This document shows, in pieces, positions 384 to 13,060 of a DNA stretch of 33,126 bases. The translations under genes were made by a program, and so were the position numbers. The notes beneath the pieces are model-generated. The model was not told the origin of the DNA. It saw only the letters and a program-made list of their open reading frames with translations, and did not search any database. Each line of letters starts with the position of its first letter. Position 1 is the stretch's first letter. The DNA comes from Paludibacteraceae bacterium (GTDB taxonomy: Bacteria; Bacteroidota; Bacteroidia; Bacteroidales; Paludibacteraceae), in contig JAKSKV010000034.1 in NCBI GenBank assembly GCA_024401555.1, positions 1 to 33,126 on the forward strand. The letters run 5' to 3'.

Positions 384-474
384 GTGAATTTTGTGGCAGA
401 AAATAATCGTGAAGATTGGTGCGATATTAATGATGGATGAAAGGATATTAATGTACCTGTTTCCCTTACAGCCT

Positions 475-482
475 TACTTTTG
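475..482 (+). promoter_or_regulatory. Bacteroidota-type -7 promoter box
   Basis: TACTTTTG matches the TAnnTTTG -7 consensus of Bacteroidota. It lies about 30 bp upstream of the start codon at 512, just after an intergenic terminator. No clean -33 TTTG was found at the expected spacing. Confidence 0.55.
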
Positions 483-511
483 CATCAAATCAAAATCAAA
501 ACATTTAAACC

Positions 512-2455
512 ATGAAAGTCATTTTTAGAACAATCGCATCGTTCATGTTGTTGGCAAATGTTTCCATTGCCTCTGCGGTTACATTAAAAGTGGAATTGGG
601 CGATAGCATTCGTCCTGTGACGCATTGCGCTTCGGGTTCCCTTTATGGTATCACGGAGAATGAACCAAGAGATATTCAAGGTCTGGTGGCTCCGTTGAAG
701 CCACACATGTTCTGCCAACCGCCAGAGGGACAAAGTTACAACCAACACCCTTATGGAGATGGTTACATCGTGGCGAAGAGAATCAAGGATATTCCGGGTG
801 CGGCGGTACAGATCACTTTGCCTGACCTTTTGCCGAACTGGCCCTACAAGTGGCCTGGCATCAATAGCTGGCTCAGCTCCGTGGAGAAGCAGGTCAAGAG
901 AAGATTCAGCGAAGGGGTGGATAACATCCATAGTTACGTAATCTGGAATGAGCCAGACGGTACTTGGAACAATAACAATGGTGATATCAAATCGACGGTA
1001 TGGAAACCAACTTATGAGTTGCTCCGCAAATTGGACCCTAAGACTCCTATCGTCGGTCCGTGTATCGCCTACTACCACGAACAGAGAATGAGAGAGTTCT
1101 TGAAGTATTGCAAAGAGAACAACTGTTTGCCCGATATGATCTGTTGGCACCAATGGGGTAGTGGCGGATTGGCCGGCGCTGTGAATAGTGTCCGCAAGTT
1201 GCAGCAAGAGTTGGGAATTCCTGAGCGTCCATACTGTATCAACGAATACTGTGCGGGTTCTGATGCGGAAAACCAGAAGTATGAGGGTTGTCCGGGATAC
1301 TCCGTACCGTTCATCGCGAAGTTCGAGCGTTACGGCATCGAGAGCGCGACCATCTCATGGTGGCACGTGCCGCACCCAGGCCGTTTGGGCAGTTTGTTGA
1401 CCGACGATGGCCAGAAGGGCGGCGGTTGGTGGCTATACAAGTGGTATGGCGATATGGAGGGATATATGTCTAAGGTGACTCCTCCAAACGATAACAGCGA
1501 TGGTGTGGATGGCTTCGCGTGCGTGGATAGAGCCCACAACTGCGCAAGCATCGTTGTCGGTGGCAAGACATTGGGTACAACTGATGTGGTCATCTCAAAG
1601 ATACCAGACTTCCTTAGCGGCACTGTTAGGGTTAGGGTGGAGCGTGTGACTTGGAAGAGCATCAATACCCCTGTAAATGGCACGGAATTGGTTTCCGAGT
1701 CAGATATGACTGTCAACGGAGGTACGCTTACCGTCCCTGTTAGGATCGAGAGCGAGTTGTATGGTTACCGTGTGTACATCACGCCGCTCAATGTGCCTCA
1801 AAACCCTTACAATGACAAGATGGCCACGATCCCAGGTCGTGTGGAGGCGGAACTTTTCGATGTTGCTGGCCAAGGTTTTTCTTTCTATGATAACGATGAT
1901 GAAAACAAAGGTGACGCGAAGTTCCGTACCAACGAAGGGGTGGATATCGTGAAGGCTGGCGAAGGCATGGCAATCGGATATACCGAGAAGGGAGAGTGGA
2001 CCGAATATACCATTGATGTGACGGAAACCAACGAGTATGACATCACAGCTAATGTCTCCAATGGAGGCGAGGTGGAGGGGTTTAAGTTGTTCCTCGATGA
2101 CAAGGAGTTGACCACATCCTATACCATTCCCAAGACTTGCGACGATTGGAGCGTATATGAGGAGGTCTCTGTAGCGAAGAGTCGCATCGAAAAGGGGCAG
2201 CACATTCTGAAACTTCAGATTGCGGGAAGCTATGTCAATGTGGATTGGTTGGCTTTCACGGTTCATGATCCTACCGGTTTGGAGGATATCGATACCCTTG
2301 GCTGGGAAGATGTTGAGAACATGGCGGATGCCGAATTCTATGATATGGAGGGTATGCGCGTCAGCAGAGGTGCGTTGCAGTTGGGCAGGGCCTATATTGC
2401 GGTCACTCCACAAAACCGAAAGGGTGTGAAGTTTGTAAAATATGAAAACAGATAA
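512..2455 (+). CDS. Secreted clan GH-A type glycoside hydrolase with C-terminal CBM6 module
   Basis: A 647-residue exported protein. Residues 1-22 form a signal peptide (hydrophobic core, SIASA cleavage). The catalytic region, about 35-430, looks like a clan GH-A TIM barrel: WNEPD places a candidate acid/base Glu at residue 147, and CINEYC a candidate nucleophile at Glu245. The start of the mature protein (ASGSLYGITE) resembles GH39-like xylosidase/arabinosidase-type enzymes, but I cannot fix the family. Residues about 440-583 are a classic CBM6 beta-sandwich (VEAE start, GEWTEYTIDV, YVNVDWLAF end). A tail (EFYDMEGMRVSR, then GRAYIAVTP) resembles degenerate type IX sorting or Bacteroidales tail domains. 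It has its own -7 box and terminator, so it is probably monocistronic; substrate is likely a plant or host polysaccharide. Confidence 0.8.
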   Translation: MKVIFRTIASFMLLANVSIASAVTLKVELGDSIRPVTHCASGSLYGITENEPRDIQGLVAPLKPHMFCQPPEGQSYNQHPYGDGYIVAKRIKDIPGAAVQITLPDLLPNWPYKWPGINSWLSSVEKQVKRRFSEGVDNIHSYVIWNEPDGTWNNNNGDIKSTVWKPTYELLRKLDPKTPIVGPCIAYYHEQRMREFLKYCKENNCLPDMICWHQWGSGGLAGAVNSVRKLQQELGIPERPYCINEYCAGSDAENQKYEGCPGYSVPFIAKFERYGIESATISWWHVPHPGRLGSLLTDDGQKGGGWWLYKWYGDMEGYMSKVTPPNDNSDGVDGFACVDRAHNCASIVVGGKTLGTTDVVISKIPDFLSGTVRVRVERVTWKSINTPVNGTELVSESDMTVNGGTLTVPVRIESELYGYRVYITPLNVPQNPYNDKMATIPGRVEAELFDVAGQGFSFYDNDDENKGDAKFRTNEGVDIVKAGEGMAIGYTEKGEWTEYTIDVTETNEYDITANVSNGGEVEGFKLFLDDKELTTSYTIPKTCDDWSVYEEVSVAKSRIEKGQHILKLQIAGSYVNVDWLAFTVHDPTGLEDIDTLGWEDVENMADAEFYDMEGMRVSRGALQLGRAYIAVTPQNRKGVKFVKYENR

Positions 2456-2482
2456 TATCCTAAGTTAATACGTGTTAGTTTG

Positions 2483-2518
2483 AATGCCCAGTTGCTGTGA
2501 AGTGACTGGGCATTTTTT
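2483..2518 (+). terminator. Rho-independent terminator
   Basis: Stem AATGCCCAGT (2483-2492) pairs with ACTGGGCATT (2505-2514) and the T run extends to 2518. It terminates the glycoside hydrolase gene just before the first repeat copy. Confidence 0.9.
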
Positions 2519-2535
2519 CTTAGAGTCATAGGGTT

Positions 2536-2741
2536 GTTAGGCGGAAATCTTTGCGTACGCCTCGTTGATTTTGGCCATCATCGCCTCGCATTCCTCTTTA
2601 CGGTTGGCGTTTTTCGGAAGGTCAGGATGGTGCTGTAGCGCCAATTGGTGTTCCGTACGGCAGTGTATGGTTGCCTAATAATTACGTTAGAAATATTTGA
2701 AAATAAGATTTCTCTGTTTGAAATAGTGAATGTGAAACAAG
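2536..2741. repeat. Repeat copy 1: displaced 3' end of the djlA-like gene plus shared cassette leader
   Basis: Bases 2536-2648 nearly duplicate the 3' end of the intact J-domain gene at 4852-5631. In minus-strand translation they give the end of the J domain, through HHPDLPKN and INEAYAKIS, and then a different stop context (AYAKISA, stop). They differ from copy 2 at two positions in 113 bp. Homology to the gene stops exactly at the 8-bp palindrome CCAATTGG (2641-2648). From 2649 to 2741 a second shared segment, absent from the intact gene, leads into the cassette and resembles the leader of copy 2. The copy has no start and is not expressed protein; it fills most of the 342-bp gap between 2456 and 2797. 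Confidence 0.93.
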
Positions 2742-2797
2742 GATTTAGCAATAAGTTTAGTTATTTTTGTGTTAAATATAATTTCAAAATCAAATGT

Positions 2798-3136
2798 ATG
2801 CGAGGAAAAGAGAAGTGTAAGATCTTAAGGGAAATCAGACAGCGTATCGCTTCGGAGAATGATATTCCATTTGTGACCAGTGAGTGTCAACACAAAGGGG
2901 AGTGTAAAGGTACTTGCCCGAAGTGTGAGGCGGAACTAAGATTCCTGGAGAGGGAGTTGGAGAAGCGTGGTAAATGGAAGATGTTGATTCCAGCGACAGG
3001 AATCGCGGCGTTATCGTTGGCATCATGCGGAGATCCTATGGAAGGGGACATTGCTTTCGATCCAATTCCGGTAGATACCACTGTCACCGACACTACGAAC
3101 CCCGTGACTACGGATTATCAATTTCCGCAAGAATAG
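2798..3136 (+). CDS. Small Cys-rich protein with internal lipobox-like segment, candidate radical SAM substrate
   Basis: A 112-residue protein. The ATG at 2798 is preferred because upstream in-frame sequence belongs to the repeat leader. Residues 1-57 are charged and helical with a CX5CX3CX2C cluster (C30, C36, C40, C43; ECQHKGECKGTCPKCE), plausibly metal-binding. A basic stretch (EKRGKWK) and a hydrophobic segment follow (62-76), ending in LASC-G at Cys77, which resembles a lipoprotein signal but sits unusually far from the N terminus. The last 35 residues are acidic and Thr-rich (VDTTVTDTTNPVTTDY). Its TAG stop overlaps the GTG start of the radical SAM gene by one base (TAGTG), indicating coupled translation. 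I recognise this kind of small protein beside radical SAM genes in Bacteroidales but no established function; a RiPP-type precursor is an inference. Confidence 0.75.
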   Translation: MRGKEKCKILREIRQRIASENDIPFVTSECQHKGECKGTCPKCEAELRFLERELEKRGKWKMLIPATGIAALSLASCGDPMEGDIAFDPIPVDTTVTDTTNPVTTDYQFPQE

Positions 3137-3768
3137 TGGTAAACATAGAGGCTCCCATTATAGGGATTGAAAGGCATCGACTGGCATCCGACGGGCAAGG
3201 AGTAACCACTTTGGTGGGCTTCTGGGGTTGTCCGTTGCAGTGCAAGTATTGCCTGAATCCTCAATCTTGGAAGGTGAAACCAACCCGTTTTTATACACCG
3301 GAGGAGCTGATGGCCATTGTCAGCATTGATCAGCTCTACTTTATGGCGACAGGGGGTGGTGTTACTTTCGGGGGCGGGGAGCCGTTGCTCTATTCCGACT
3401 TTGTCGTAGCTTTTCGAGCGCTCTGCGGTGAAACGTGGAATCTTTCCGTGGAGACATCTCTGAATGTCCCGACATCCCAATTGGAGAAAATCTTTCCTGC
3501 GGTGAACCACTTCATTGTGGATTTAAAGGAGTCAAACGAGTCGATTTACCGTTCATATACAGGCAAGGGGAACCAGCAGGTCATCGACAACCTAAATTGG
3601 CTTTTGGCGCATTTGGCAGTGGAAAATATAACCGTTAAGTTGCCTCATATCCCAGGGTACAATACAGCGGACGATGTGGCGGCCAGCGAGGCTTGGCTGA
3701 AGGAGTTGGGAATCTTTCGGATAGACCATCTCACCTATCGTACCGATGAACATATCAAGAAGGTCTAG
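3136..3768 (+). CDS. Minimal radical SAM protein (activase/maturase-like)
   Basis: About 210 residues from the GTG that overlaps the upstream stop; a longer open frame upstream runs through the small protein in another frame and is not used. GFWGCPLQCKYC carries the CX3CX2C motif (C32, C36, C39) that binds the 4Fe-4S cluster in radical SAM enzymes. VTFGGGEPLL is the Gly-Glu motif contacting S-adenosylmethionine, and VDLKE resembles glycyl-radical activases of the PflA/YjjW group. The chain is short for that group and lacks extra ferredoxin-like clusters. No glycyl-radical enzyme lies in the window; the only partner is the translationally coupled Cys-rich small protein, which suggests it acts on that peptide. 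The exact reaction cannot be read from sequence. Confidence 0.82.
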   Translation: MVNIEAPIIGIERHRLASDGQGVTTLVGFWGCPLQCKYCLNPQSWKVKPTRFYTPEELMAIVSIDQLYFMATGGGVTFGGGEPLLYSDFVVAFRALCGETWNLSVETSLNVPTSQLEKIFPAVNHFIVDLKESNESIYRSYTGKGNQQVIDNLNWLLAHLAVENITVKLPHIPGYNTADDVAASEAWLKELGIFRIDHLTYRTDEHIKKV

Positions 3769-3777
3769 TGAAGAGAC

Positions 3778-3993
3778 GTTAGGCGGAAATCTTTGCGTAC
3801 GCCTCGTTGATTTTGGCCATCATCGCCTCGCATTCCTCCTTACGGTTCGCGTTTTTCGGAAGGTCAGGATGGTGCTGTAGCGCCAATTGGATGTTTCCTA
3901 CGGCAATGTACGGTTGCCAAATAATTACGTTAGAAATATTTGAAAGTAAAAAAGAAATCGTACCTTTGTTTAAAATAGTGAATGTGAAACAAG
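3778..3993. repeat. Repeat copy 2: displaced 3' end of the djlA-like gene plus shared cassette leader
   Basis: Bases 3778-3890 match copy 1 at 111 of 113 positions and match the intact gene's 3' end (4867-4969) except at two positions near the stop. The gene-derived part again ends at the palindrome CCAATTGG (3883-3890). Bases 3891-3993 share with copy 1 the segments TACGGCA, AATAATTACGTTAGAAATA and ATAGTGAATGTGAAACAAG. The repeat sits between the end of the radical SAM gene and the start of the two-TM gene, so each cassette is bounded on both sides by djlA 3'-end sequence. All copies are in the same orientation. Confidence 0.93.
3961..3968 (+). promoter_or_regulatory. -7 promoter box inside the repeat leader
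   Basis: TACCTTTG fits TAnnTTTG and lies about 70 bp upstream of the gene at 4040, within the leader shared by both cassettes. The equivalent place in copy 1 (near 2711-2720) has lost a clean match, so the first cassette may be expressed more weakly or from another site. Confidence 0.55.
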
Positions 3994-4039
3994 TTATATA
4001 GTAATAAGATTAATATTATGGGTGGTGATTGAGTGAAAT

Positions 4040-4795
4040 ATGGAGTGGTTAAAGAAGTATTGGTTAAACTTGCTTAATATTTCAGCAAGTTTGTGTTCTA
4101 TTGCAAGTATTCTTCTTCTTTTGTTTGCTGATAAAGACAAAGCCTTATTAGCGTTGGTTTTTGTTGTTATTTTTCTAAGTGCTGTTTTAGTTGTCATCAT
4201 AGTTGGAATCTTCAGATTTACAAAGAAGGAGAATGTTGAGGATTTTAAAATAGTAACTATATCTGCATCCTATGAAACATTCGACAAAAGTAAGGCAGAA
4301 TATAATGTCTATAAGGTTATTCAATCGAAGGTGGCTTGCTTGACAACAGTCAAACAGCAATTTAAGTGGACAGGAACAAATCAGCCTGAATTGTCTTCAG
4401 ATTTTCAGGATATAAAAAAAATAAATGTTCTGAATGATGAGGAAGCCTACGATAATGTAATTTTAGGCATTAGGAATCCTATTTTATATAATGGAACAAC
4501 GACAATTCATTTAAAGGCTAAATTGGATGATTATGATGGCAAATCTAAACCTCTATTAAGTCAAAGGATTGAGTTCCCCGTTGATTTGGCAAGGTTAAGG
4601 GTTGTCTTAAGGGACAAATCGGATTCGTTTGACAAAGTTGCGTATTTAGAAAAACGGAAAATCAAGTGTTCCCCATTAACTTCTGATTATAAGATTGTTG
4701 AGTCTATATCTTTTGACAAGGCAAGTAAGAGTTACAGTTATAATTTGATTAATCCTGAAGTGGGTTATATATATCGAATTAGATGGGAAAAATAG
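4040..4795 (+). CDS. Two-TM membrane-anchored protein of unknown function
   Basis: 251 residues. Two hydrophobic segments (about 11-29 and 35-58), separated by a short charged turn (ADKDKA), form a membrane hairpin. Residues 60-251 are soluble and look beta-strand rich, with no motif I recognise. The gene is visibly AT-richer than the flanking housekeeping genes and lies between two djlA 3'-end repeats, both signs of acquisition. The overall shape, a 2TM hairpin followed by a beta-rich domain, is reminiscent of membrane effectors in bacterial anti-phage systems such as the S-2TM-beta class, but no nucleotidyltransferase or other defence gene is adjacent, so this is only a suggestion. The start at 4040 is the first ATG after the leader. 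Confidence 0.7.
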   Translation: MEWLKKYWLNLLNISASLCSIASILLLLFADKDKALLALVFVVIFLSAVLVVIIVGIFRFTKKENVEDFKIVTISASYETFDKSKAEYNVYKVIQSKVACLTTVKQQFKWTGTNQPELSSDFQDIKKINVLNDEEAYDNVILGIRNPILYNGTTTIHLKAKLDDYDGKSKPLLSQRIEFPVDLARLRVVLRDKSDSFDKVAYLEKRKIKCSPLTSDYKIVESISFDKASKSYSYNLINPEVGYIYRIRWEK

Positions 4796-4851
4796 TACGA
4801 AAGTAGTTTGCTTTTTTAGTTGCTTTAGGATATTTATATTGTTGTCCATTT

Positions 4852-5631
4852 TTAAACATTACCACTAATCTTCGCATACGCCTCGTTGATTTTGGCCATC
4901 ATCGCCTCGCATTCCTCCTTACGGTTCGCGTTTTTCGGAAGGTCAGGATGGTGCTGTAGCGCCAATTGGTGATAAGCCCTCTTCACCTCTTCAGGAGAGG
5001 CGTTCTCGGATAAGCCCAACAAATTGTAGTAGGGCTTTAGGTAGTTAATGGAGTTACTGTAGCTCCTTCTCTCTTGGTGGTCGGTATGGTAGGAGTAGGA
5101 GTCGAACTCCGTGCGCAACGGCTGAAAACGTTGGTTGAAATAGTTGATCCAATGTTCGTTGAAATTGGCTCCTTTCATGATCGTTTGCAACAACTTCCAT
5201 TCATCATTTTTGATGCCGTCTTCTGTGGCTGCCAACTTAAAGAATAGGGTAACTATACTCTTCCATGTTCCGGTTTCTTGTTTTCTGATATATGCGAAAG
5301 CTTCTGCCAAAGTCTTATCCAACGATGGATTGTCCAAGAAGGGAATGGCGTCGTCGCTATAGGTCTCTTTTAAAATATCTACTTGATTCGCTCGGGCGGA
5401 GGGGTTGAGTTGCGTGATTTGCCGTATGATCACGGAGAGATAGACGCCCTCCTTTTTGTAGTGTTTATATTTACGCACATATCTACGCAAACGGGTATCC
5501 CAGAAGTATGAGAAATAGTTTCTCTTTACCCTTTTTGCCGAAGTGTCAAAATATATTAACAATGGCGCAAGGATAATAACGATGATCGAGGCGATGAAGT
5601 TGAATATTCTATAGTATGTGATCTTTCTCAT
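4852..5631 (-). CDS. DjlA-like membrane-anchored J-domain protein
   Basis: 259 residues. An N-terminal transmembrane segment (about 10-28) is followed by a charged linker, a helical TerB-like middle region (about 75-190), and a C-terminal J domain (about 200-256) with the invariant HPD at 228-230. J domains stimulate DnaK ATPase; DjlA-type proteins do this at the inner membrane. It is the last gene of a minus-strand operon, five bases after yjbQ. Its last ~34 codons (from the CCAATTGG at 4962-4969 to near the stop) are present twice more at 2536-2648 and 3778-3890. The intact copy ends KISGNV, the displaced copies KISA, so its very 3' end appears to have been replaced. Confidence 0.85.
   Translation of the reverse strand: MRKITYYRIFNFIASIIVIILAPLLIYFDTSAKRVKRNYFSYFWDTRLRRYVRKYKHYKKEGVYLSVIIRQITQLNPSARANQVDILKETYSDDAIPFLDNPSLDKTLAEAFAYIRKQETGTWKSIVTLFFKLAATEDGIKNDEWKLLQTIMKGANFNEHWINYFNQRFQPLRTEFDSYSYHTDHQERRSYSNSINYLKPYYNLLGLSENASPEEVKRAYHQLALQHHPDLPKNANRKEECEAMMAKINEAYAKISGNV
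4867..4969. repeat. Repeat copy 3: 3' end of the intact djlA-like gene
   Basis: This is the in-gene version of the 103-bp sequence displaced at 2536-2648 and 3778-3890. It differs from copy 2 at only two positions, both close to the stop codon. The inner boundary is the palindrome CCAATTGG (4962-4969), beyond which the gene continues while the other copies change to the cassette leader. Confidence 0.93.
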
Positions 5632-5636
5632 AGCTA

Positions 5637-6047
5637 TTATTCATAAATAGTGGCTACAATTTTTCTTGCACCCCCTGCTGCGCGGAATTCGCAGAGATAA
5701 ATGCCCTGCCAAGTACCCAAGTTGAGTCTGCCATTCGTGATGGGGATGTTGAGGCTCACACCAAAGAGGGAACTCTTCGCATGGGCGGGCATATCGTCAT
5801 CTCCTTCCAAAGTATGGTCGTAGAAGGGTTGGTTCTCAGGAACCATCTTATTGAGGATCTTCTCCATGTCACTGCGCACATCCGGATCCGCGTTCTCGTT
5901 GATGGAGAGGGCGCAAGAGGTGTGCTTCACAAATAGATTCAATAGGCCTGTTTTAGGCAATGGGGGCAGTTGCTCCAAGATTTCTCTGGTGACAAGGTGG
6001 CAGCCCCTGCGTTTGGCCGACAGTGCGAATTCTACTTGTTGTATCAT
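5637..6047 (-). CDS. yjbQ: YjbQ family protein (UPF0047)
   Basis: 136 residues, the usual length. It shows the family's HTSCALSINENAD signature near residue 63, the acidic DDDMPAHAKSSLFG segment and the GTWQGIYLCEFR strand near the C terminus. Members form small trimers and have been reported to show weak thiamine phosphate synthase activity, but the physiological role is unsettled. It lies between rluD (11-bp gap) and the djlA-like gene (5-bp gap), consistent with one transcript. Confidence 0.9.
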   Translation of the reverse strand: MIQQVEFALSAKRRGCHLVTREILEQLPPLPKTGLLNLFVKHTSCALSINENADPDVRSDMEKILNKMVPENQPFYDHTLEGDDDMPAHAKSSLFGVSLNIPITNGRLNLGTWQGIYLCEFRAAGGARKIVATIYE

Positions 6048-6058
6048 GGTGGATGGCT

Positions 6059-7144
6059 CTAATCGTCAAGATTTCCTCCTTGGGCGAATCTGCGCCACTT
6101 TTCGATGAGTTGGCGGAAATCATCGGGCCATTCAGAGTCGAAATAGAGCTCTTCGCCAGTGGTAGGGTGGACAAAGCCCAAGGTCTTGGCGTGGAGAGCT
6201 TGCCTTGGGCAAATCTCCAAGCAGTTCTTCACGAATTGTTTGTATTTAGCGGTGGTGTTGCCGCGTAGAATTTCCTTGCCGCCATAGCGTTCATCCGCAA
6301 AGAGGGTGTGTCCGATGTGTTTCATGTGGACACGTATTTGGTGGGTACGGCCTGTCTCCAATCTACACTCCACGAGGGTAACGTAGCCGAAACGCTCCAA
6401 TACACGGTAGTGTGTCACCGCATGTTTGGCATTGGGATTTTCACCTTCGGGGAAGACGGTGAAGAGCATACGATCCTTCGGGTCGCGGCCCAGGTCACCT
6501 GTGATGGTTCCTTCATCCTCCACGATATTTCCCCAAACCAAGGCATTGTAGAGTCGCTTGGTCGTTTTATTGAAAAATTGTTTGCCCAAATGGGTCTTCG
6601 CATCCTCGTTCTTGGCGATGACCAATAGGCCGGAGGTGTCTTTGTCGATGCGGTGGACCAGTCCCAATCGGGGGTCATCCACATTGAAATCAGGGTTGTC
6701 CTTGAGATACCAAGCCAATGCGTTGAGCAGGGTGCCTTGGAAGTTGCCGAAACCTGGATGCACCACCATACCTGGTTGTTTGTTGACCAATACGACATCC
6801 TTGTCCTCATAGACGACGTTGATAGGAATATCCTGTGGGATGATCTCAAAGTCTGATGGTGGGTAGGAGAGCATAACGGATATCACATCCAATGGCTTCA
6901 CGCGGTAGTTGGATTTTACGGGATTACCGTTGACGAGAATGCACTTCGCGTCGGCCGCATCCTGGATACGGTTGCGGGAGATGTTGGACATGATATTCAC
7001 CAGATACTTGTCGATACGGACCAACGAGTGCCCCTTTTCGACCGTAAACCGGAAGTGTTCGTGGAACTGTCCGTCGCCTCCCAATTCGGCGCCGCCTTCT
7101 CCCTCCTCGTTCTCTAAATCTTCAAGTGTCTCCTCTGCGATCAT
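6059..7144 (-). CDS. rluD: RluA/RluD family 23S rRNA pseudouridine synthase
   Basis: 361 residues. An acidic N-terminal extension (1-30) precedes an S4 RNA-binding domain (about 40-95) and the pseudouridine synthase domain. HRIDKDTSGLL places the catalytic Asp at 167, and RTHQIRVHMKHIGH is the conserved second motif. S4 plus this core is the RluC/RluD layout; the RluD assignment (U1911/1915/1917 region of 23S rRNA) is the usual one but is not proven here. Its start overlaps the PASTA gene stop by four bases (ATGA), indicating translational coupling. Confidence 0.9.
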   Translation of the reverse strand: MIAEETLEDLENEEGEGGAELGGDGQFHEHFRFTVEKGHSLVRIDKYLVNIMSNISRNRIQDAADAKCILVNGNPVKSNYRVKPLDVISVMLSYPPSDFEIIPQDIPINVVYEDKDVVLVNKQPGMVVHPGFGNFQGTLLNALAWYLKDNPDFNVDDPRLGLVHRIDKDTSGLLVIAKNEDAKTHLGKQFFNKTTKRLYNALVWGNIVEDEGTITGDLGRDPKDRMLFTVFPEGENPNAKHAVTHYRVLERFGYVTLVECRLETGRTHQIRVHMKHIGHTLFADERYGGKEILRGNTTAKYKQFVKNCLEICPRQALHAKTLGFVHPTTGEELYFDSEWPDDFRQLIEKWRRFAQGGNLDD

Positions 7145-7995
7145 TTGAACAACTCCTCTTCTTCCGTCTTAGCCTCTGATGGATTCTCCTCGTTGTAGTA
7201 GATCTCCTCTGGAGTCTCTAACAATGAGAGATCTTTGGTCATATAGAGTTTGATGGCGCTACCCATGCTTACCTTAGCTTCCGTAACGGGTTCTTGCTTG
7301 TAAACGACATATTGAGCCTTCTCGTCTTCGTCGATAGGTTGTTCGTTGTAGATGACCGTACCGATGTTTAGGAAAGAGGTGTGGGCCATGTTGGTGGCGC
7401 GTTCCAAGGTGAGCTTTCTGAAACTTGGCACCTCGCACAACTCGTTGTTCAATCCTCTTCCGACGAATAGCGTGACAGCGGATCCCTCTGGGATGCGCGC
7501 GCCCACTTCCAACGGCATATTCTTCTGTTTCACATATTGCACCAAGTCTTTGAACTCCGAAGTGACATAGACGATGCTATCCACCTTGATTCCGACCGAA
7601 CGGAGCATGGATTCAGCTTGTCTGAGGGAGTATTCGCGGACATCAGGCACAGTCACTTTTCTGACGGTGGAGGAGTTGACGATAAGGTAGATCGTTCTTC
7701 CCGCCTTGATTTTATCGCCCGCTTTCGGAGTCTGTTCGACGATGGAGCCCAATGTTTTACCCTTCACATAGATGGAGTCCACCACAGATGCTTTCAGGGA
7801 TTGTTTGCTCAACAGCAACGCAGCCTCATCCGTCGTCATGCCGGAGAGATCGGGCACGGGGAATTCCTGTCCGTGGTTGGTATAGGAGTCCAACCAAGAA
7901 AAGACCGCCTTGTAGATGATGACAACAAGCAAAAGAGCCGCTACAATACTGATAGTGTAAGGGTTGATGAATATTTTCTTCGCATCTATTTTCAT
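7141..7995 (-). CDS. PASTA-domain membrane protein
   Basis: 284 residues. One N-terminal transmembrane helix (about 13-35) is followed by three PASTA repeats (about 46-110, 113-180 and 188-255), each with the pattern VPD(L/V), then a hydrophobic helix, then GSxI/V-YLxV. An acidic Glu-rich tail follows. PASTA domains bind peptidoglycan fragments or muropeptides in kinases and PBPs; here no kinase or transpeptidase domain is attached, as is common for Bacteroidota PASTA proteins. It is first in the PASTA-rluD-yjbQ-djlA operon and has a -7 box about 35 bp upstream. Confidence 0.9.
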   Translation of the reverse strand: MKIDAKKIFINPYTISIVAALLLVVIIYKAVFSWLDSYTNHGQEFPVPDLSGMTTDEAALLLSKQSLKASVVDSIYVKGKTLGSIVEQTPKAGDKIKAGRTIYLIVNSSTVRKVTVPDVREYSLRQAESMLRSVGIKVDSIVYVTSEFKDLVQYVKQKNMPLEVGARIPEGSAVTLFVGRGLNNELCEVPSFRKLTLERATNMAHTSFLNIGTVIYNEQPIDEDEKAQYVVYKQEPVTEAKVSMGSAIKLYMTKDLSLLETPEEIYYNEENPSEAKTEEEELFK

Positions 7996-8027
7996 AAGAC
8001 AGAATATCGTTTTAAATATAATTTCTA

Positions 8028-8035
8028 CAAATGTA
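8028..8035 (-). promoter_or_regulatory. -7 promoter box for the PASTA-rluD-yjbQ-djlA operon
   Basis: On the minus strand TACATTTG matches TAnnTTTG, about 33 bp before the PASTA start codon. Confidence 0.6.
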
Positions 8036-8061
8036 CGATAATTTTTGGGACTTACTGCCCG

Positions 8062-8241
8062 TTACCAAAACTTATTCTGTCCCTCGTTGTACTCGAAGCC
8101 GCCTTCCGCCAATTTGGCCACCAACTCCTCTCGGTTGATATCCATGGAGTCGCAAAGTTCATCCAACGAACTGTACTCATCCCGTAATTTCATGTTGACG
8201 AAGCTGAGCAGCATGCTGATGTTTTCTGGCAATTGTTCCAT
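8062..8241 (-). CDS. DUF4250 domain-containing small protein
   Basis: 59 residues beginning MEQLPENISMLLSFVNMKLR, with SSLDELCDSMDINREELV and ending FEYNEGQNKFW. This is the DUF4250 pattern: an LP..-MLLS-VN-KLRD start, a helix-turn-helix-like middle, and a tyrosine/asparagine-rich end. The function of the family is unknown; the short helical fold looks like a small DNA-binding or adaptor unit. It lies between rpmH and the PASTA operon and is too short for usual length cut-offs. Confidence 0.85.
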   Translation of the reverse strand: MEQLPENISMLLSFVNMKLRDEYSSLDELCDSMDINREELVAKLAEGGFEYNEGQNKFW

Positions 8242-8270
8242 TGTATGGTGTTGTTTTATTGTTAATGGAT

Positions 8271-8302
8271 AAAAAACAAAGGCGCACCTGAAAGATGCGC
8301 CC
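8271..8302 (-). terminator. Terminator downstream of rpmH
   Basis: On the minus strand, GGGCGCA (8302-8296) pairs with TGCGCCT (8286-8280) around a short loop, followed by a T-rich run read through 8271-8279. It separates rpmH from the DUF4250 gene. Confidence 0.75.
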
Positions 8303-8327
8303 TATTCCTTCTTTGTTTCGAGAAAGA

Positions 8328-8486
8328 TTATCGTCTTGTAGTGTACTCGTCAGAAACAGTCAATTTCTTTCTTCCGTGTGCTCTACGAGATGCCAATACT
8401 CTGCGTCCGTTAGCAGTCTCCATTCTTGAACGGAAACCATGCTTGTTCTTTCTCTTTCTGATTGATGGTTGAAATGTTCTTTTCAT
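8328..8486 (-). CDS. rpmH: 50S ribosomal protein L34
   Basis: 52 residues, very basic, beginning [20 protein letters not shown] with the conserved [21 protein letters not shown] core. The extension after the core ([11 protein letters not shown]) is typical of Bacteroidota. It has a well-formed promoter upstream and a terminator downstream, so it appears to be a single-gene unit; the dnaA/rnpA neighbours seen in many phyla are absent. Confidence 0.97.
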
Positions 8487-8546
8487 TGCCGTGTATTTTT
8501 ATTATTATTTTTATTTCTTTTATTTTCTACATCCAATTTCGGATTG

Positions 8547-8577
8547 CAAAGATAGTGGTTTTCTCCGATATATCAAA
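8547..8577 (-). promoter_or_regulatory. Full Bacteroidota promoter for rpmH (-33 and -7 boxes)
   Basis: Minus strand: TTTG at 8577-8574 and TATCTTTG at 8554-8547, separated by 19 bp, the spacing expected for the TTTG / TAnnTTTG consensus. This is the clearest promoter in the window. Confidence 0.8.
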
Positions 8578-8605
8578 TTGTTAATAACTTTTTTTGCGAA
8601 AAAAC

Positions 8606-9649
8606 TCACTTTCCACGAAGGATGTCGCTGATCTTGTTGATAATCAAACTGTTGTCTATATTGTTGAGGCATGCGTAATCGCCTCTTCTGCAAGGCTCCT
8701 TACCGTAAATGGAACAAGGACGGCAAGGAAGATCGAGTTGCACCGCATGGTCGGGATGCTGTCCGTAGCCATAAAATCCGGCGAATGGGTGGGTGGCGCC
8801 CCAGATAGAGACAACCGGTGTCCGCACCAAAGAGGCGAGGTGCATATTGGCGGAGTCCATGGAGAGAAGCACATCGCAGTGATTTAGAATCTGTAACTCC
8901 TCCATCAGTGTGAATTTGCCTGCGAGGGATAGGGTATGAGGGTATCGGGCTACCCAACCGTCGAATACTTCGCTCTCCTTCTTCCCTCCACCGAAGAGGA
9001 GTATTTGTGTATCCTCCTGGGCGGCGAAGTGGGCGATGACCGCCTCCGTCTTCTCCAGGGGAAGAATTTTTCCCTTGTGCTGTGCGAATGGTGCCATTGC
9101 CACTCTTTTCGCATAACTATTCGCACCTATCTCCTTCTCGAGCTGAGTAGGGAGAGGGGCCGATTTGTCGATTAGCCCGTCGAAATCGATTTGGAAAGGG
9201 TAGCCAGCCTTCTCGAAGACCTCCAAGTAGCGTTGGATGGAGCTCTTGAGCTGTTTTTTCTCTTTGTTGTCCGCCGATACGAGTCTCTTCTTCTCGCTGC
9301 GACCCTTGTCGATGACAAACACTGGTTTGCCTGATGCGCGGAGGATAGTTCTGAGGATTTTGCTACGCAGGACGTCGTGCAGGTCAACCATTTTCTCGAA
9401 GCGATAATTGCGTCTTAAATGGTTGAAGAGCTTCACCATACCGAAGGTGCCCTTGTAGGTTTGTTTCGTGTCAACTGGCACAAAGGTGACGCGCTCCATT
9501 CCCTCAAAGAGGGTGGAGAGGCGGGGTGTTGATAGCATAATCACCCCTATGTTGGGGTAGGCTTGAAGAAAAGAGGCAATAACGGGGACCGTCATTGCCA
9601 CATCTCCCATAGCGGAAAGCCTCATTACCAAAAGGTTCTTCTCCACCAT
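8606..9649 (-). CDS. Glycosyltransferase family 9 (heptosyltransferase-like)
   Basis: 347 residues. The N terminus LLVMRLSAMGDVAMTVPVI is the GT9 start motif, and the C-terminal half holds the nucleotide-sugar region (SMDSANMHLASLVRTPVVSIWGATHP) typical of ADP-heptose:LPS heptosyltransferases. These transfer heptose or related sugars to lipid A core. The next upstream gene is DUF4254, seven bases away, a pairing I recall as usual in Bacteroidota. The acceptor cannot be told from sequence. Confidence 0.88.
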   Translation of the reverse strand: MVEKNLLVMRLSAMGDVAMTVPVIASFLQAYPNIGVIMLSTPRLSTLFEGMERVTFVPVDTKQTYKGTFGMVKLFNHLRRNYRFEKMVDLHDVLRSKILRTILRASGKPVFVIDKGRSEKKRLVSADNKEKKQLKSSIQRYLEVFEKAGYPFQIDFDGLIDKSAPLPTQLEKEIGANSYAKRVAMAPFAQHKGKILPLEKTEAVIAHFAAQEDTQILLFGGGKKESEVFDGWVARYPHTLSLAGKFTLMEELQILNHCDVLLSMDSANMHLASLVRTPVVSIWGATHPFAGFYGYGQHPDHAVQLDLPCRPCSIYGKEPCRRGDYACLNNIDNSLIINKISDILRGK

Positions 9650-9656
9650 TGCGCTA

Positions 9657-10262
9657 TTATTTCTTTCCGTAAAGGATCGGATTGAGGTTCGGATCGTTGT
9701 ACATCTTCATTTGCTTGTACACCTTCATGTAGCGGTCGCCGTTCTCTATATCCTTGATGAGCTGGTCGATCGCGGAGGAGAGATCCTCGCGTTGCTCCAA
9801 AAGAACATCCAATTTCTTTTGGCAAGCGGCTTTGTGTTCAGCTGAGACATCGGTTCTCTCCACCTCGTTGCGCATGTGATAAATTTTGAGTGCGAGGATG
9901 GAAAGGCGGTCGATTGCCCATGCGGGGCTCTCGGTATTGATGACAGCGGATGGTTTTACCTTCACGCTGGCATATTTCTCCAGAAAATAACTGTCGATTC
10001 TCTCCACCAAGTCAGTTCTGTCTTGGTTGGACTTGTCGATTCTACGCTTGATGGCCAAAGCCTCAACGGGGTCGATTTCCGGGTTTCTGATGATATCCTC
10101 GAGGTGCCATTGTACGGTGTCGATCCAGTTTTTGAGATAAAGAACGCTCTCGATGGTTTGTGCCTTGAATGGGTTGACCATAACTGCGTCCACATCATCT
10201 GTTTTGTGGTAATCGACAATGACTCCGTCGAATAACTTGTTTGCGTCTTGACTGAAACTCAT
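9657..10262 (-). CDS. DUF4254 domain-containing protein
   Basis: 201 residues, highly charged and helical. It matches the DUF4254 layout (VIVDYH near the start, then ESVLYLKNWIDTVQWHLED and SPAWAIDRLSILALKIYHM). The function is unknown. It is first in a two-gene operon with the heptosyltransferase-like GT9 gene, so a role in LPS or glycan assembly is a reasonable guess. Confidence 0.88.
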   Translation of the reverse strand: MSFSQDANKLFDGVIVDYHKTDDVDAVMVNPFKAQTIESVLYLKNWIDTVQWHLEDIIRNPEIDPVEALAIKRRIDKSNQDRTDLVERIDSYFLEKYASVKVKPSAVINTESPAWAIDRLSILALKIYHMRNEVERTDVSAEHKAACQKKLDVLLEQREDLSSAIDQLIKDIENGDRYMKVYKQMKMYNDPNLNPILYGKK

Positions 10263-10302
10263 ATTGTTTGGGTATTACAATATTTTTGCTACATATTTTA
10301 GG

Positions 10303-10310
10303 CAAAGATA
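10303..10310 (-). promoter_or_regulatory. -7 promoter box for the DUF4254-GT9 operon
   Basis: Minus-strand TATCTTTG, about 40 bp before the DUF4254 start codon. No clean -33 box is visible. Confidence 0.55.
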
Positions 10311-10354
10311 GGAAAAAAATGGAAAAGTGTAAAGTGATGACGCCTAATCGTGAT

Positions 10355-10390
10355 GAAAGAAAAGAGGGATACCCGTATGGATACCCCTCT
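10355..10390 (-). terminator. Terminator downstream of the rhodanese-like gene
   Basis: Minus-strand AGAGGG...CCCTCT stem (10390-10385 with 10368-10363) with an imperfect inner stem around GTATCC repeats, followed by TTTTCTTTC. The inner mismatches make it weaker than the other terminators here. Confidence 0.6.
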
Positions 10391-10411
10391 CATGAATCTT
10401 ATGGAACAATA

Positions 10412-10876
10412 TTATTGCTCGGTTGGATAACCAGCTTTTACCCAAGCGTCGTAACCGCCATCCAAAAGGGTGACCTTGTCGCTTCCGTATTTGCAAGCCA
10501 ATTGGCCAGGAACCGCGTTACCGTTGATACCCCAACCCTTGTCTGCGCCATAAACGAAAATCTCTGAATTGAGGTCAGCCTCCTCCATCACCATCTTCAC
10601 GTAAGGGCAGTTGCCTTGCACGCCGTCGAGATCCTTATTGGTAACAGGGATGTTGATAGCGTCAGGAATGTGACCTTTGGCGAACTCGTCAGCAGAACGG
10701 TAATCGATTACCACAAAATGGTTTTGCGTATTTTGCATACCTGCCTTGAAATTAGCAGCCGAAGCCTTCACGTGGTCGCAAAGATCGCTCTTGCCGTCGC
10801 CACCGCATGAATCACAGCTTGTCATACTAACCGCCATAGCGGCAGCGAAAATAAATTTGAATCCTAAATTTCTCAT
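10412..10876 (-). CDS. Rhodanese-like lipoprotein lacking the catalytic Cys
   Basis: 154 residues. A lipoprotein signal ends MTSC with Cys21, so it is membrane-anchored outside the cytoplasm. A single rhodanese domain follows: FVVIDYRSADEFAKGHIPDAINIPV is the CH2A-type entry and TLLDGGYDAWVKAGYP the end. Sulfurtransferases have a Cys at the start of the active loop after the IxVY strand. Here that loop reads VYGADKGWGINGNA with no Cys; the nearby Cys in GQLACKYG lies on the next helix. It is therefore probably non-catalytic and may bind a ligand or partner. It has its own promoter and terminator. Confidence 0.85.
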   Translation of the reverse strand: MRNLGFKFIFAAAMAVSMTSCDSCGGDGKSDLCDHVKASAANFKAGMQNTQNHFVVIDYRSADEFAKGHIPDAINIPVTNKDLDGVQGNCPYVKMVMEEADLNSEIFVYGADKGWGINGNAVPGQLACKYGSDKVTLLDGGYDAWVKAGYPTEQ

Positions 10877-10922
10877 GGGTTTATCTCCTATTATATGAAT
10901 ACATTAAATTTTAGCGTATGTG

Positions 10923-10930
10923 CAAATATA
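10923..10930 (-). promoter_or_regulatory. -7 promoter box for the rhodanese-like gene
   Basis: Minus-strand TATATTTG about 46 bp before the start codon, fitting TAnnTTTG. Confidence 0.55.
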
Positions 10931-10967
10931 GGGAAAATTATTGATTATCATTTGTTTTGCGCAAATT

Positions 10968-12077
10968 TTATTTGTGCGTCACATTGACCTTTTGTGTTTC
11001 GGGGAGTGTGGCGTTGCGGATTTCCACCTGTTCCACTACATTTTGCGCCAGATCAGCGAAACATTTTCCTGTAATGGAATCGGGGTCGCATGCCACCGGT
11101 TTTCCACTGTCTCCACCGTCGCAGATGCTCTGCACGATCGGAATCTGGCCCAACAATTTCACGCCCATCTCTTCTGCCAATCTTTTGCATCCCTCTTTGC
11201 CGAAGATGTAATATTTGTTGTTAGGAAGTTCGGCGGGAGTGAACCATGCCATGTTCTCCACCAGGCCCAAAATAGGCACGTTGACCTTCTCTCCGGTAAA
11301 CATGCTGATGCCTTTGCGGGCATCGGCCAAAGCCACCTCTTGCGGGGTGCTGACCACGATGGCGCCTGTGATGGCAAGCGTTTGCACCAAGGTCAAGTGA
11401 ATATCGCTGGTGCCGGGTGGAAGATCGAGGATGAAGTAGTCCAACTCGCCCCAATTGGCGTCGGAGATAAGCTGTTTCAAGGCATTGCTAGCCATGCCAC
11501 CTCTCCAAAGCACTGCGTTTTGCGGATCGACAAAGAAGCCGATGGAGAGCATTTTCACGCCGTACTTCTCTTCCGGGCGGATAAGTTCACGGCCGTCAAC
11601 TGGCTCCAAATAGGGCCTTGCATCCTCCAATCCGAACATTTTAGGAACAGAGGGGCCGAAGATATCCGCATCCAACAATCCCACCTTATAGCCGGCATTT
11701 GCCAACGCTACGGCAAGGTTGGAGGAGACGGTTGACTTTCCGACACCACCCTTACCGGATGATACGGCGATGATATTCTTCACTTGTGGCAACAACTTAT
11801 CTGGTTGTGCGGGAATCTGCGTCTTGTAGTTGACGCTGATATTGCCCACAATCTCCGCCTCGGCGCCCACATAGGTGAGGATGGCCTGCTCGGCGGCCTT
11901 CACCAAGGATTTGGCGAAGGGGTCGCCCTGCTTTTCCAAAAGGAGGGAGAAGGAGATTTTATTGCCTTCGATTCGTATGTTGTCGTCCACCATCTCTGAT
12001 GAGACGATATCCTTTCCGGTTCCTGGATAGCGCACATGTTTCAGCGCATCCAATATCAGTTGGGGATAAAAAGCCAT
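10968..12077 (-). CDS. mrp: Mrp/ApbC family iron-sulfur cluster carrier ATPase
   Basis: 369 residues. An N-terminal MIP18/DUF59-type domain (about 1-85) is followed by the P-loop ATPase with the deviant Walker A GKGGVGKST at about 108-116, VGLLDADIFGPSVPKMFG, and DLPPGTSDIHLTL. Mrp/Nbp35 proteins carry 4Fe-4S clusters to apo-proteins. The C-terminal CxxC that bridges the cluster in ApbC/Nbp35 is absent: the region after VENM reads AWFTPAELPNNKYYIFG. I recall this form from other Bacteroidota, so it is probably lineage-typical. It lies two bases downstream of ddl and is probably cotranscribed. Confidence 0.92.
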   Translation of the reverse strand: MAFYPQLILDALKHVRYPGTGKDIVSSEMVDDNIRIEGNKISFSLLLEKQGDPFAKSLVKAAEQAILTYVGAEAEIVGNISVNYKTQIPAQPDKLLPQVKNIIAVSSGKGGVGKSTVSSNLAVALANAGYKVGLLDADIFGPSVPKMFGLEDARPYLEPVDGRELIRPEEKYGVKMLSIGFFVDPQNAVLWRGGMASNALKQLISDANWGELDYFILDLPPGTSDIHLTLVQTLAITGAIVVSTPQEVALADARKGISMFTGEKVNVPILGLVENMAWFTPAELPNNKYYIFGKEGCKRLAEEMGVKLLGQIPIVQSICDGGDSGKPVACDPDSITGKCFADLAQNVVEQVEIRNATLPETQKVNVTHK

Positions 12078-12079
12078 AA

Positions 12080-13060
12080 TTATTTGTTTAATTCATTCTC
12101 GATAATATCCGTCATCACATCCTTGATGTCCAAACCTGCGGCGCGTACCTGTTGCGGAATGAAACTGGTGGCGGTCATACCTGGCGTGGTGTTCACCTCA
12201 AGGAGATTGATCACATCGCCCTCTGTGATGATGTAATCCACGCGGATGATACCTTTCGCTCCGATGAGGTCATAGATCATGCCAGTGAGACGTTGCACAC
12301 GATCTGTCACCAATTTGGACAATCTAGCTGGGGTGATCTCCTCCACAGCGCCATTGTATTTGGCGTCGGTGTCGAAGAACTCGTTCTTGCTGACCACCTC
12401 TGTGATGGGGAACACAATCGCCTTGTTCTTTGTCTTATAGGCACCACAGGTGATCTCTGTACCCTTCATAAATGATTCGATGATCACTTGGTCGCTCTCC
12501 ACCAAGGCTGCTTCCACCGCTTTCACGATTCCGTCGGCGCTCTTCACCTTAGAGGTGCCATAGCTACTGCCACCGCCATTAGGTTTCACGAAGATAGGCA
12601 TACCCAACTCCTCCTCGATGGCTTGCGGATTGATCTTATCGCCCTTGTTGATGAGTACAGACTTGGCGATAGGTATTTGGAATTGGTGAAGATACTTATT
12701 GCAGAAATACTTGTTGAAGGTAAGGGCTGCCGCCAAAACGCCGCAACAAGAATAGGGGATGCGAAGAAGATCGAAATAACCTTGGAGTTTACCATCCTCG
12801 CCCGGTACGCCGTGAATGGTGATATAGGCGAAATCGAAGTTCACATGATCTCCCTTTTTATTGATGAAAGAGAAGTCGTTCTTGTCGATAGGGAACTTCT
12901 CCCCCTCGCATTCCACTTCCCACTTGGTTCCAACGATGGTCACGATGTAAAGGTCGTATCTCTCCTTGTCGATGAAGGAGTAAAGACCTGCCGCGCTTCT
13001 GAGGGAGACCTCCAATTCGGATTGGTCGCCACCTGCTACGATTGCAATTTTCTTTTTCAT
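12080..13060 (-). CDS. ddl: D-alanine--D-alanine ligase
   Basis: 326 residues with the Ddl layout: N-terminal KIAIVAGGDQSELEVSLRSA, the VHGVPGEDG-type motif (ITIHGVPGEDGKLQGYFDLL), the ATP-grasp glycine loop GGGSSYGTSKV, and RVDYIITEGDVINLLEVNTTPGMT at the metal and D-Ala site. It makes the D-Ala-D-Ala dipeptide for peptidoglycan in the cytoplasm. It is first in a ddl-mrp pair with a -7 box upstream. Confidence 0.95.
   Translation of the reverse strand: MKKKIAIVAGGDQSELEVSLRSAAGLYSFIDKERYDLYIVTIVGTKWEVECEGEKFPIDKNDFSFINKKGDHVNFDFAYITIHGVPGEDGKLQGYFDLLRIPYSCCGVLAAALTFNKYFCNKYLHQFQIPIAKSVLINKGDKINPQAIEEELGMPIFVKPNGGGSSYGTSKVKSADGIVKAVEAALVESDQVIIESFMKGTEITCGAYKTKNKAIVFPITEVVSKNEFFDTDAKYNGAVEEITPARLSKLVTDRVQRLTGMIYDLIGAKGIIRVDYIITEGDVINLLEVNTTPGMTATSFIPQQVRAAGLDIKDVMTDIIENELNK

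Follow-up and report, generated by a model that had tools for sequence, protein, structure and literature searches.

Two short gene cassettes in series at a multiplied J-gene 3' end in a Paludibacteraceae genome

Results

Three copies of the J-gene 3' end

The stretch of DNA analysed here (the window) comprises 33,126 bp of contig JAKSKV010000034.1 from a gut bacterium of the Paludibacteraceae (assembly GCA_024401555.1; genome G000 in the following). It contains a gene for a J-domain co-chaperone (J gene) whose 3' end is present three times; the copies are called J tails. Two short gene groups, cassettes A and B, lie between the tails, and each cassette is preceded by a leader. The features of the locus are the following (aa, amino acids; SAM, S-adenosylmethionine):

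512..2455, plus strand: GH39/CBM6-like gene, left neighbour of the empty site (see below); its orthologue adjoins the J gene in the related genome G008
2536..2648, minus strand: J tail copy 1, probably the earliest resident 3' end, now displaced; frame open up to the stop, terminus ISA; continuous with the left flank in G008
2649..2743, plus strand: leader 1, 9 bp shorter than leader 2, within the promoter part
2798..3136, plus strand: cassette A, gene 1, 112-aa cysteine-containing protein
3136..3768, plus strand: cassette A, gene 2, radical SAM protein; its GTG start overlaps the stop of gene 1
3778..3890, minus strand: J tail copy 2, open to the stop codon, terminus ISA
3891..3993, plus strand: leader 2, with a promoter-pattern match
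4040..4795, plus strand: cassette B gene, 251-aa protein
4852..5631, minus strand: J-domain gene, its 3' end on the left, with the replaced terminus ISGNV
4867..4969, minus strand: J tail copy 3, the working 3' end; its stop-proximal part is unlike G008 and copies 1 and 2

The J-gene product has 259 aa and a C-terminal J domain (Pfam DnaJ, 7.1e-15), and it gave a weak match to the DjlA model (45 bits; cut-off, 162), which makes "djlA-like", the label used in the original prediction from this DNA, a fair one. The GH39/CBM6-like gene matched Pfam CBM_6 (3.3e-16) and, under the cut-off of that family, Glyco_hydro_39 (1.7e-4).

Coordinates and counts of the three tails were recomputed and agreed with the prediction: they lie in direct orientation, with 2 differences in 113 bases between copies 1 and 2 and 2 in 103 between copies 2 and 3. 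Together with the leader pair they are the sole direct-repeat families of at least 40 bp reported for the whole window. The mutual homology of copies 1 and 2 begins at the J stop codon (2536 and 3778, respectively), and copy 3 resembles both to within a few codons of the stop codon. At the opposite side, all homology to the gene had been claimed to end at one palindrome. Indeed, CCAATTGG is the limit of homology between copy 2 and the gene, but copy 1 extends two bases beyond it, to 2650. Past CCAATTGG, the gene runs into its own body, whereas copies 1 and 2 run into the common leader, which the gene lacks. It had also been predicted that neither cassette encodes an integrase, and this agrees with their gene content, which is the 112-aa protein and the radical SAM protein in A and the 251-aa protein in B.

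An empty site in a related genome

Besides that of the window itself, a close J orthologue was found in only one of the 16 genomes of the genus (G008, 94%). There, the GH39-like gene directly adjoins the J gene and a single J end is present; this is an empty site. Window positions 412-2650 aligned with 6894-9122 of the G008 sequence L039 (79%), positions 4867-7997 aligned with 9018-12163 (86%), and the two alignments overlap in G008 solely at 9018-9122, which is the J tail. Read against G008, the window corresponds to the empty site after an insertion of about 2.2 kb, with multiplication of the tail, and the comparison supports copy 1 as the old J end and copy 3 as a newly supplied end.

The terminus of the J protein points in the same direction. 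G008, the protein cluster P0004 (84% identical) and copies 1 and 2 end in ISA, whereas the window's gene, P0003 (98%) and P0005 (96%) end in ISGNV; the remoter P0006 (59%) ends in ISNRA, and ISGNV is limited to close relatives of the window among P0002-P0006. Because of this difference between G008/P0004 and window/P0003/P0005, we conclude that the J terminus was replaced, which argues for a gain in the window and not for its mirror image, a precise loss in G008. As ISGNV occurs in three protein clusters, one of them that of the window, several strains probably share the event that introduced it.

Tails look coding, leaders have diverged

Translation of copies 1 and 2 in the J frame is uninterrupted up to the stop codon. 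Before and including the Ser codon, the three tails show differences at five codons, all of them synonymous; two are private to copy 1 and three set copy 3 apart. A random change in this part of the tail would be synonymous in about 19% of cases, and under free decay the chance that both private changes of copy 1 are silent is about 0.036. The two leaders differ at 11 of 93 aligned bases and in addition by a 9-bp and a 1-bp indel, as against 2 of 113 bases in the adjoining tails (Fisher p = 0.0036). If the leaders came with separate units and the tails from the host gene, one would expect the tails to be less diverged than the leaders. The data fit tails that until recently terminated working genes and were joined to leaders that are older and diverged separately; alternatively, the tails would have been homogenised with the gene.

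The leader carries a promoter pattern

The leader is about 95-100 bp long. Leader 2 has an exact match at 3939-3968 to TTTG-N18-TACCTTTG, which we take to be the Bacteroidales promoter pattern; three such matches are present in the window, with 0.55 expected. Leader 1 lacks 9 bp in the promoter part, so that cassette A may use another start. No terminator-like site was found between the stop of the radical SAM gene (3768) and copy 2, nor between B and copy 3, and therefore transcripts of A and B could read into the next tail, antisense to the end of the J mRNA.

No exact match to the leader was found in a set of genome contigs or in a set of viral contigs, from both of which near relatives of the window's genome were possibly left out. 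Among 358 genomes of the family, 21 matched: the window's own genome and 20 others holding only pieces of 23-48 bp, all within leader positions 37-87 (window 3927-3977) and for the most part in the promoter region. Of 101 relatives, 10 gave a match when J tails were counted in, and one of them, from another family (G076), holds a leader piece of 38 bp with 84% identity, which sits within a 747-aa frame. With nothing but short pieces found elsewhere in these four sets, a dispersed mobile leader is not supported. A structured RNA or a folded recombination site at the leader was likewise unsupported: the leader strands folded no better than shuffled sequences (z, -0.84 to 0.13), and a scan of 2400-5000 gave no Rfam match.

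J tails elsewhere and the search for a mover

J tails were searched in 61 genomes, of which 7 had matches. Outside the window, each of them is part of a J gene, whether one with an open frame of at least 252 aa, one truncated by the end of its contig or one with a frame shift. Ten of the listed places have frames of less than 130 aa: the two window copies, six genes at contig ends and two frame-shifted genes; six of the eight places outside the window were checked by sequence and two (G004 C49 and C10) were judged by coordinates. A dispersed repeat was thus rejected for these genomes. The original prediction had named two findings that would speak against site-specific accretion at the J gene, the same cassettes with unrelated flanks and repeats dispersed and unlinked to the gene; neither was encountered.

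Up to 21 J tails were present per genome (G004), and 10 of the 16 genus genomes had none at threshold. In G000 and several relatives, J-domain genes stand in tandem groups whose members diverge in the N-terminal part but are very similar at the 3' end:

G000: C77, C149
G003: C31, C103
G004: C35, C43, C49
G008: C94, C109
G014: C32, C64, C90, C105
G019: C32
G034: C22

In G003 C103, two J genes enclose an AbiD-type gene (PADLOC, 9.6e-72) of opposite orientation (L116 1458-2483), and two pieces matching this gene adjoin J genes at contig ends in G014 (L120 3947-4471; L121 1-315).

The cassettes contain no transposase, and no inverted repeat of at least 20 bp was found at their ends, shorter ones not having been tested systematically. 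Plasmids and phages searched with a 2,451-bp region gave no match, and a viral origin is not supported, as the virus searches returned no relative. G000 has seven tyrosine-recombinase hits.

Cargo of the cassettes

The GC content is 48.9% in cassette A and 32.5% in cassette B, with 46.7% in the window. The 112-aa protein has no Pfam match and has relatives in 15 of the 16 genus genomes. The radical SAM protein (Pfam Radical_SAM, 1.2e-17) resembles activases of glycyl radical enzymes (TIGR02494, 138 bits; cut-off, 174). It has matches of at least 48% identity in 14 of the 16 genomes, the window's own included; G013 has only a weak match (31%) and G008 has none. G008, with a completeness of 88%, lacks relatives of both A genes. 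A radical SAM gene lies next to a relative of the 112-aa gene in G006, G002 and G012 (broken in G012). Because of this pairing and the genus-wide relatives, cassette A is regarded as an operon of a type ordinary for the genus, but in an unusual location. A hexapeptide-type gene precedes the radical SAM gene in G003, G004 and G014, and a place beside it was considered as the ancestral home of A; G000 and G008 have the hexapeptide-type gene alone, but its place varies in the genus and relocation is unproven. Two relatives of the radical SAM protein, P0122 and P0123, match the window without any difference at residues 2-135 and then diverge (23 of 75 residues in P0122), as in a mosaic allele, which ends near J tail copy 2. 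A weak viperin-like match of the radical SAM protein in the defence library (4.4e-5) was taken as unspecific.

The B protein has one close protein cluster and one relative with 34% identity (101 genomes searched, two matched including its own); this relative, in G034, lies in ordinary chromosomal surroundings. B is therefore a near-orphan, predicted to be of membrane type. The predicted structure has two helices followed by strands and is unreliable (mean predicted local distance difference test score, 49), and comparison with solved structures gave no relative (best E, 0.3). Neither a tetraspanin-like assignment (0.0031, under the cut-off) nor one as a defence protein (only CARF_TM, 0.011, in the defence library) was accepted, both matches being taken as unspecific.

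Recombination at the J gene and quality of the assembly

Between G000 and G008, the synonymous divergence (dS) of the J gene is 0.18, compared to 0.59-1.9 for five neighbours (the GH39-like, UPF0047, rluD and PASTA genes and the next gene upstream; values above 1 are saturated). This points to a recent interspecies exchange at the J gene, and therefore homologous recombination has probably been active there, unless related genomes were mixed in the assembly. At 5345-5768, G008 shares exact runs of 144, 169 and 89 bp with the window. Over window 4852-5768, which covers the J gene and the 3' portion of UPF0047, the two genomes are far closer than in the neighbouring genes.

The window derives from a short-read assembly, which is a caveat. 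Positions 1-55 match G008 exactly (L039 6348-6402) and divergence sets in thereafter; this is probably the end of an assembly graph built with 55-mers. Exact runs of 61, 75, 93 and 95 bp, all longer than 55, exist within the J tails. The independent protein clusters P0003 and P0005 back the joint of the J gene with ISGNV, not the joint between A and copy 2.

Discussion

Proposed origin of the arrangement

With moderate confidence, we favour an origin in which two short, recombinase-less cassettes, resembling integrase-less cis-mobilizable elements (CIMEs), entered successively by single crossover at the 3' end of the J gene. Each unit, of about 1.1-1.2 kb and most simply a circle, would consist of a spare J 3' coding end, the leader with its promoter and the cargo. 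One crossover between the J 3' end of the unit and that of the chromosome would keep the J frame whole with the end supplied by the cassette, and the resident end would be pushed outward beside the leader. After two such rounds, in either order, the resident end would stand as copy 1, and A and B would have contributed copies 2 and 3, respectively. In this scheme, the circle, the sequence of events and the enzyme are inferred. As for the enzyme, the two units begin with the same leader to within one base, and both spare ends terminate at the J stop codon or close to it; for these reasons, we slightly prefer a site-specific recombinase (in trans or lost since) to RecA. The low GC content of B, which departs from that of the window, is in line with this origin. 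The original prediction of an element that enters the gene end, restores it and displaces the old one, twice in tandem, is partly supported, namely by the empty site in G008, the displaced copy 1, the supplied copy 3 with ISGNV, the coding-like tails and the two stacked cassettes; the plain duplication with later gene replacement that it had named as an alternative is still a rival.

Several observations weigh against an origin by cassette entry. Neither cassette has a recombinase or transfer gene, and none of the seven tyrosine-recombinase hits of G000 shares a contig with its nine J tails, serine recombinases and transposases not having been searched. The full leader was found at no other place in the 358 family genomes, the 101 relatives, the genome contigs or the viral contigs, and the six other J tails of G000 have no leader copy. 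The cargo of A is of an ordinary operon type in the genus, the silent private sites number only two, and the structure and the empty site were each seen in one genome only.

Alternative explanations

A less probable but serious alternative needs RecA only. DNA from strains with another gene behind the J gene would have recombined within the J gene or its tail, or within the leader. Of the two joints, the first would be illegitimate (homology facilitated) and the second would use the tail-leader repeat thus made, with no mobile cassette and no special recombinase. The recent interspecies exchange of the J gene (dS and long exact runs, see above), the mosaic structure of the radical SAM gene with its change after residue 135 and the tail length of about 100 bp all agree with such a course, and homology-facilitated illegitimate recombination is known in competent species from the parts of PMC2884548 that deal with it. 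By itself, however, it leaves unexplained the common start of the leaders and the spare ends at or near the stop codon. If instead only B was inserted, followed by a local tandem duplication of tail and leader in which operon A replaced the gene in one copy, one would expect both leaders only at this locus, with tail and leader adjacent in both copies, and this is what was found. But then the unequal divergence of tails (2/113) and leaders (11/93; p = 0.0036) requires homogenised tails, and the changes in copy 1 are silent; we regard this course as rather unlikely.

Ancestral cassettes lost from G008 by tail-tail recombination are very improbable. The tails are long enough for such a deletion and G008, at 88% completeness, has no relatives of the A genes, but G008 and P0004 end in ISA like the displaced copies, ISGNV occurs only in the window's close relatives among P0002-P0006, and the tails must still have arisen earlier. 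We give equally little credence to an assembly artefact, that is, chimeric joins at J tails in a metagenome with related species: the start of the window does look like the end of a 55-mer graph and the exact runs in the tails exceed that length, but the J body with its ISGNV end recurs in P0003 and P0005 (the joint of A and copy 2 has no such support), and reads normally bridge repeats as short as these.

Going further, minimal recombinase-less cassettes of gut Bacteroidales might use the J 3' end together with the promoter leader as a docking and expression site, integron-like in effect, with the recombinase encoded elsewhere. We consider this quite unlikely; if it were true, the expanded tandem J-gene family of the genus would be a set of potential docking sites.

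Comparison with known systems

Among the closest counterparts is prophage e14 of Escherichia coli K-12, for which the sections of PMC11148124 on icd describe a duplicated coding 3' end of 165 bp with 12 nucleotide changes. There as here, entry near the 3' end of a protein gene supplies a new coding end and displaces the old one. Whereas e14 is a prophage with its own integrase gene, the units at the J gene are of about 1.1 kb, have no recombinase and stand two in series. CIMEs that are accreted with integrative and conjugative elements (ICEs) or integrative and mobilizable elements (IMEs) have no integration genes, retain att-like repeats at their flanks and are stacked at one site, as far as PMC5704250 covers them. 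Cassettes A and B likewise have no integration or transfer genes of their own. Direct repeats flank each of them and might correspond to attL and attR; the search for a recombinase covered tyrosine recombinases. CIMEs are, however, defined in that source as decayed ICEs or IMEs, and neither a parent element nor a transfer remnant is seen in the cassettes. Because descent from an ICE or IME is thus not apparent, we do not file the locus as a CIME.

The staphylococcal cassette chromosome mec (SCCmec) and the Enterococcus cassette chromosome (ECC) also enter the 3' region of a conserved protein gene (rlmH), with flanking direct repeats and variable cargo, but in the account given in PMC6222049 they depend on ccr serine recombinases, their att repeats are about 50 bp long and the ECC described has 32 kb. 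Here, the target is a J-domain gene and the cassettes contain no ccr gene (the rest of the genome was not searched for ccr). Of the 68 integrated thaumarchaeal elements with defined sites treated in the relevant part of PMC6563490, 14 lie in 3' parts of protein genes. They resemble the J locus in their 3'-distal targets, the tandem use of one target and the comparison of empty sites; they differ in that their att or target-site repeats are generally short and in being proviruses, casposons and other larger classes. Homology-facilitated illegitimate recombination, as presented in PMC2884548, could add genes beside a homologous anchor without mobility genes but does not predict the same leader and gene-end boundaries in two units.

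In view of e14/icd, the thaumarchaeal elements and the accreted CIMEs, as far as these sources describe them, the remark in the original prediction that no such landing site was known to it was too strong. No such arrangement at a J-domain gene turned up in searches of the open PMC library, though this leaves earlier publication possible. Gene-end-restoring insertion, 3'-end targeting and stacked integrase-less elements are known; what seems to differ here is the size, the promoter leader, the ordinary operon cargo and the absence of a visible parent element. The locus would thus present gene-end-restoring insertion with units of about 1.1 kb that carry one or two genes each but none for mobility, in two successive insertions, and the relative with the empty site makes the insertion steps readable. 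If RecA alone was at work, the locus would illustrate clearly how, in nature, repeats assist the stacking of genes behind a leader that bears a promoter. If the units are mobile, they would be about as small as the cassettes of integrons while using a protein-coding sequence for attachment, and one could look for the recombinase that serves them.

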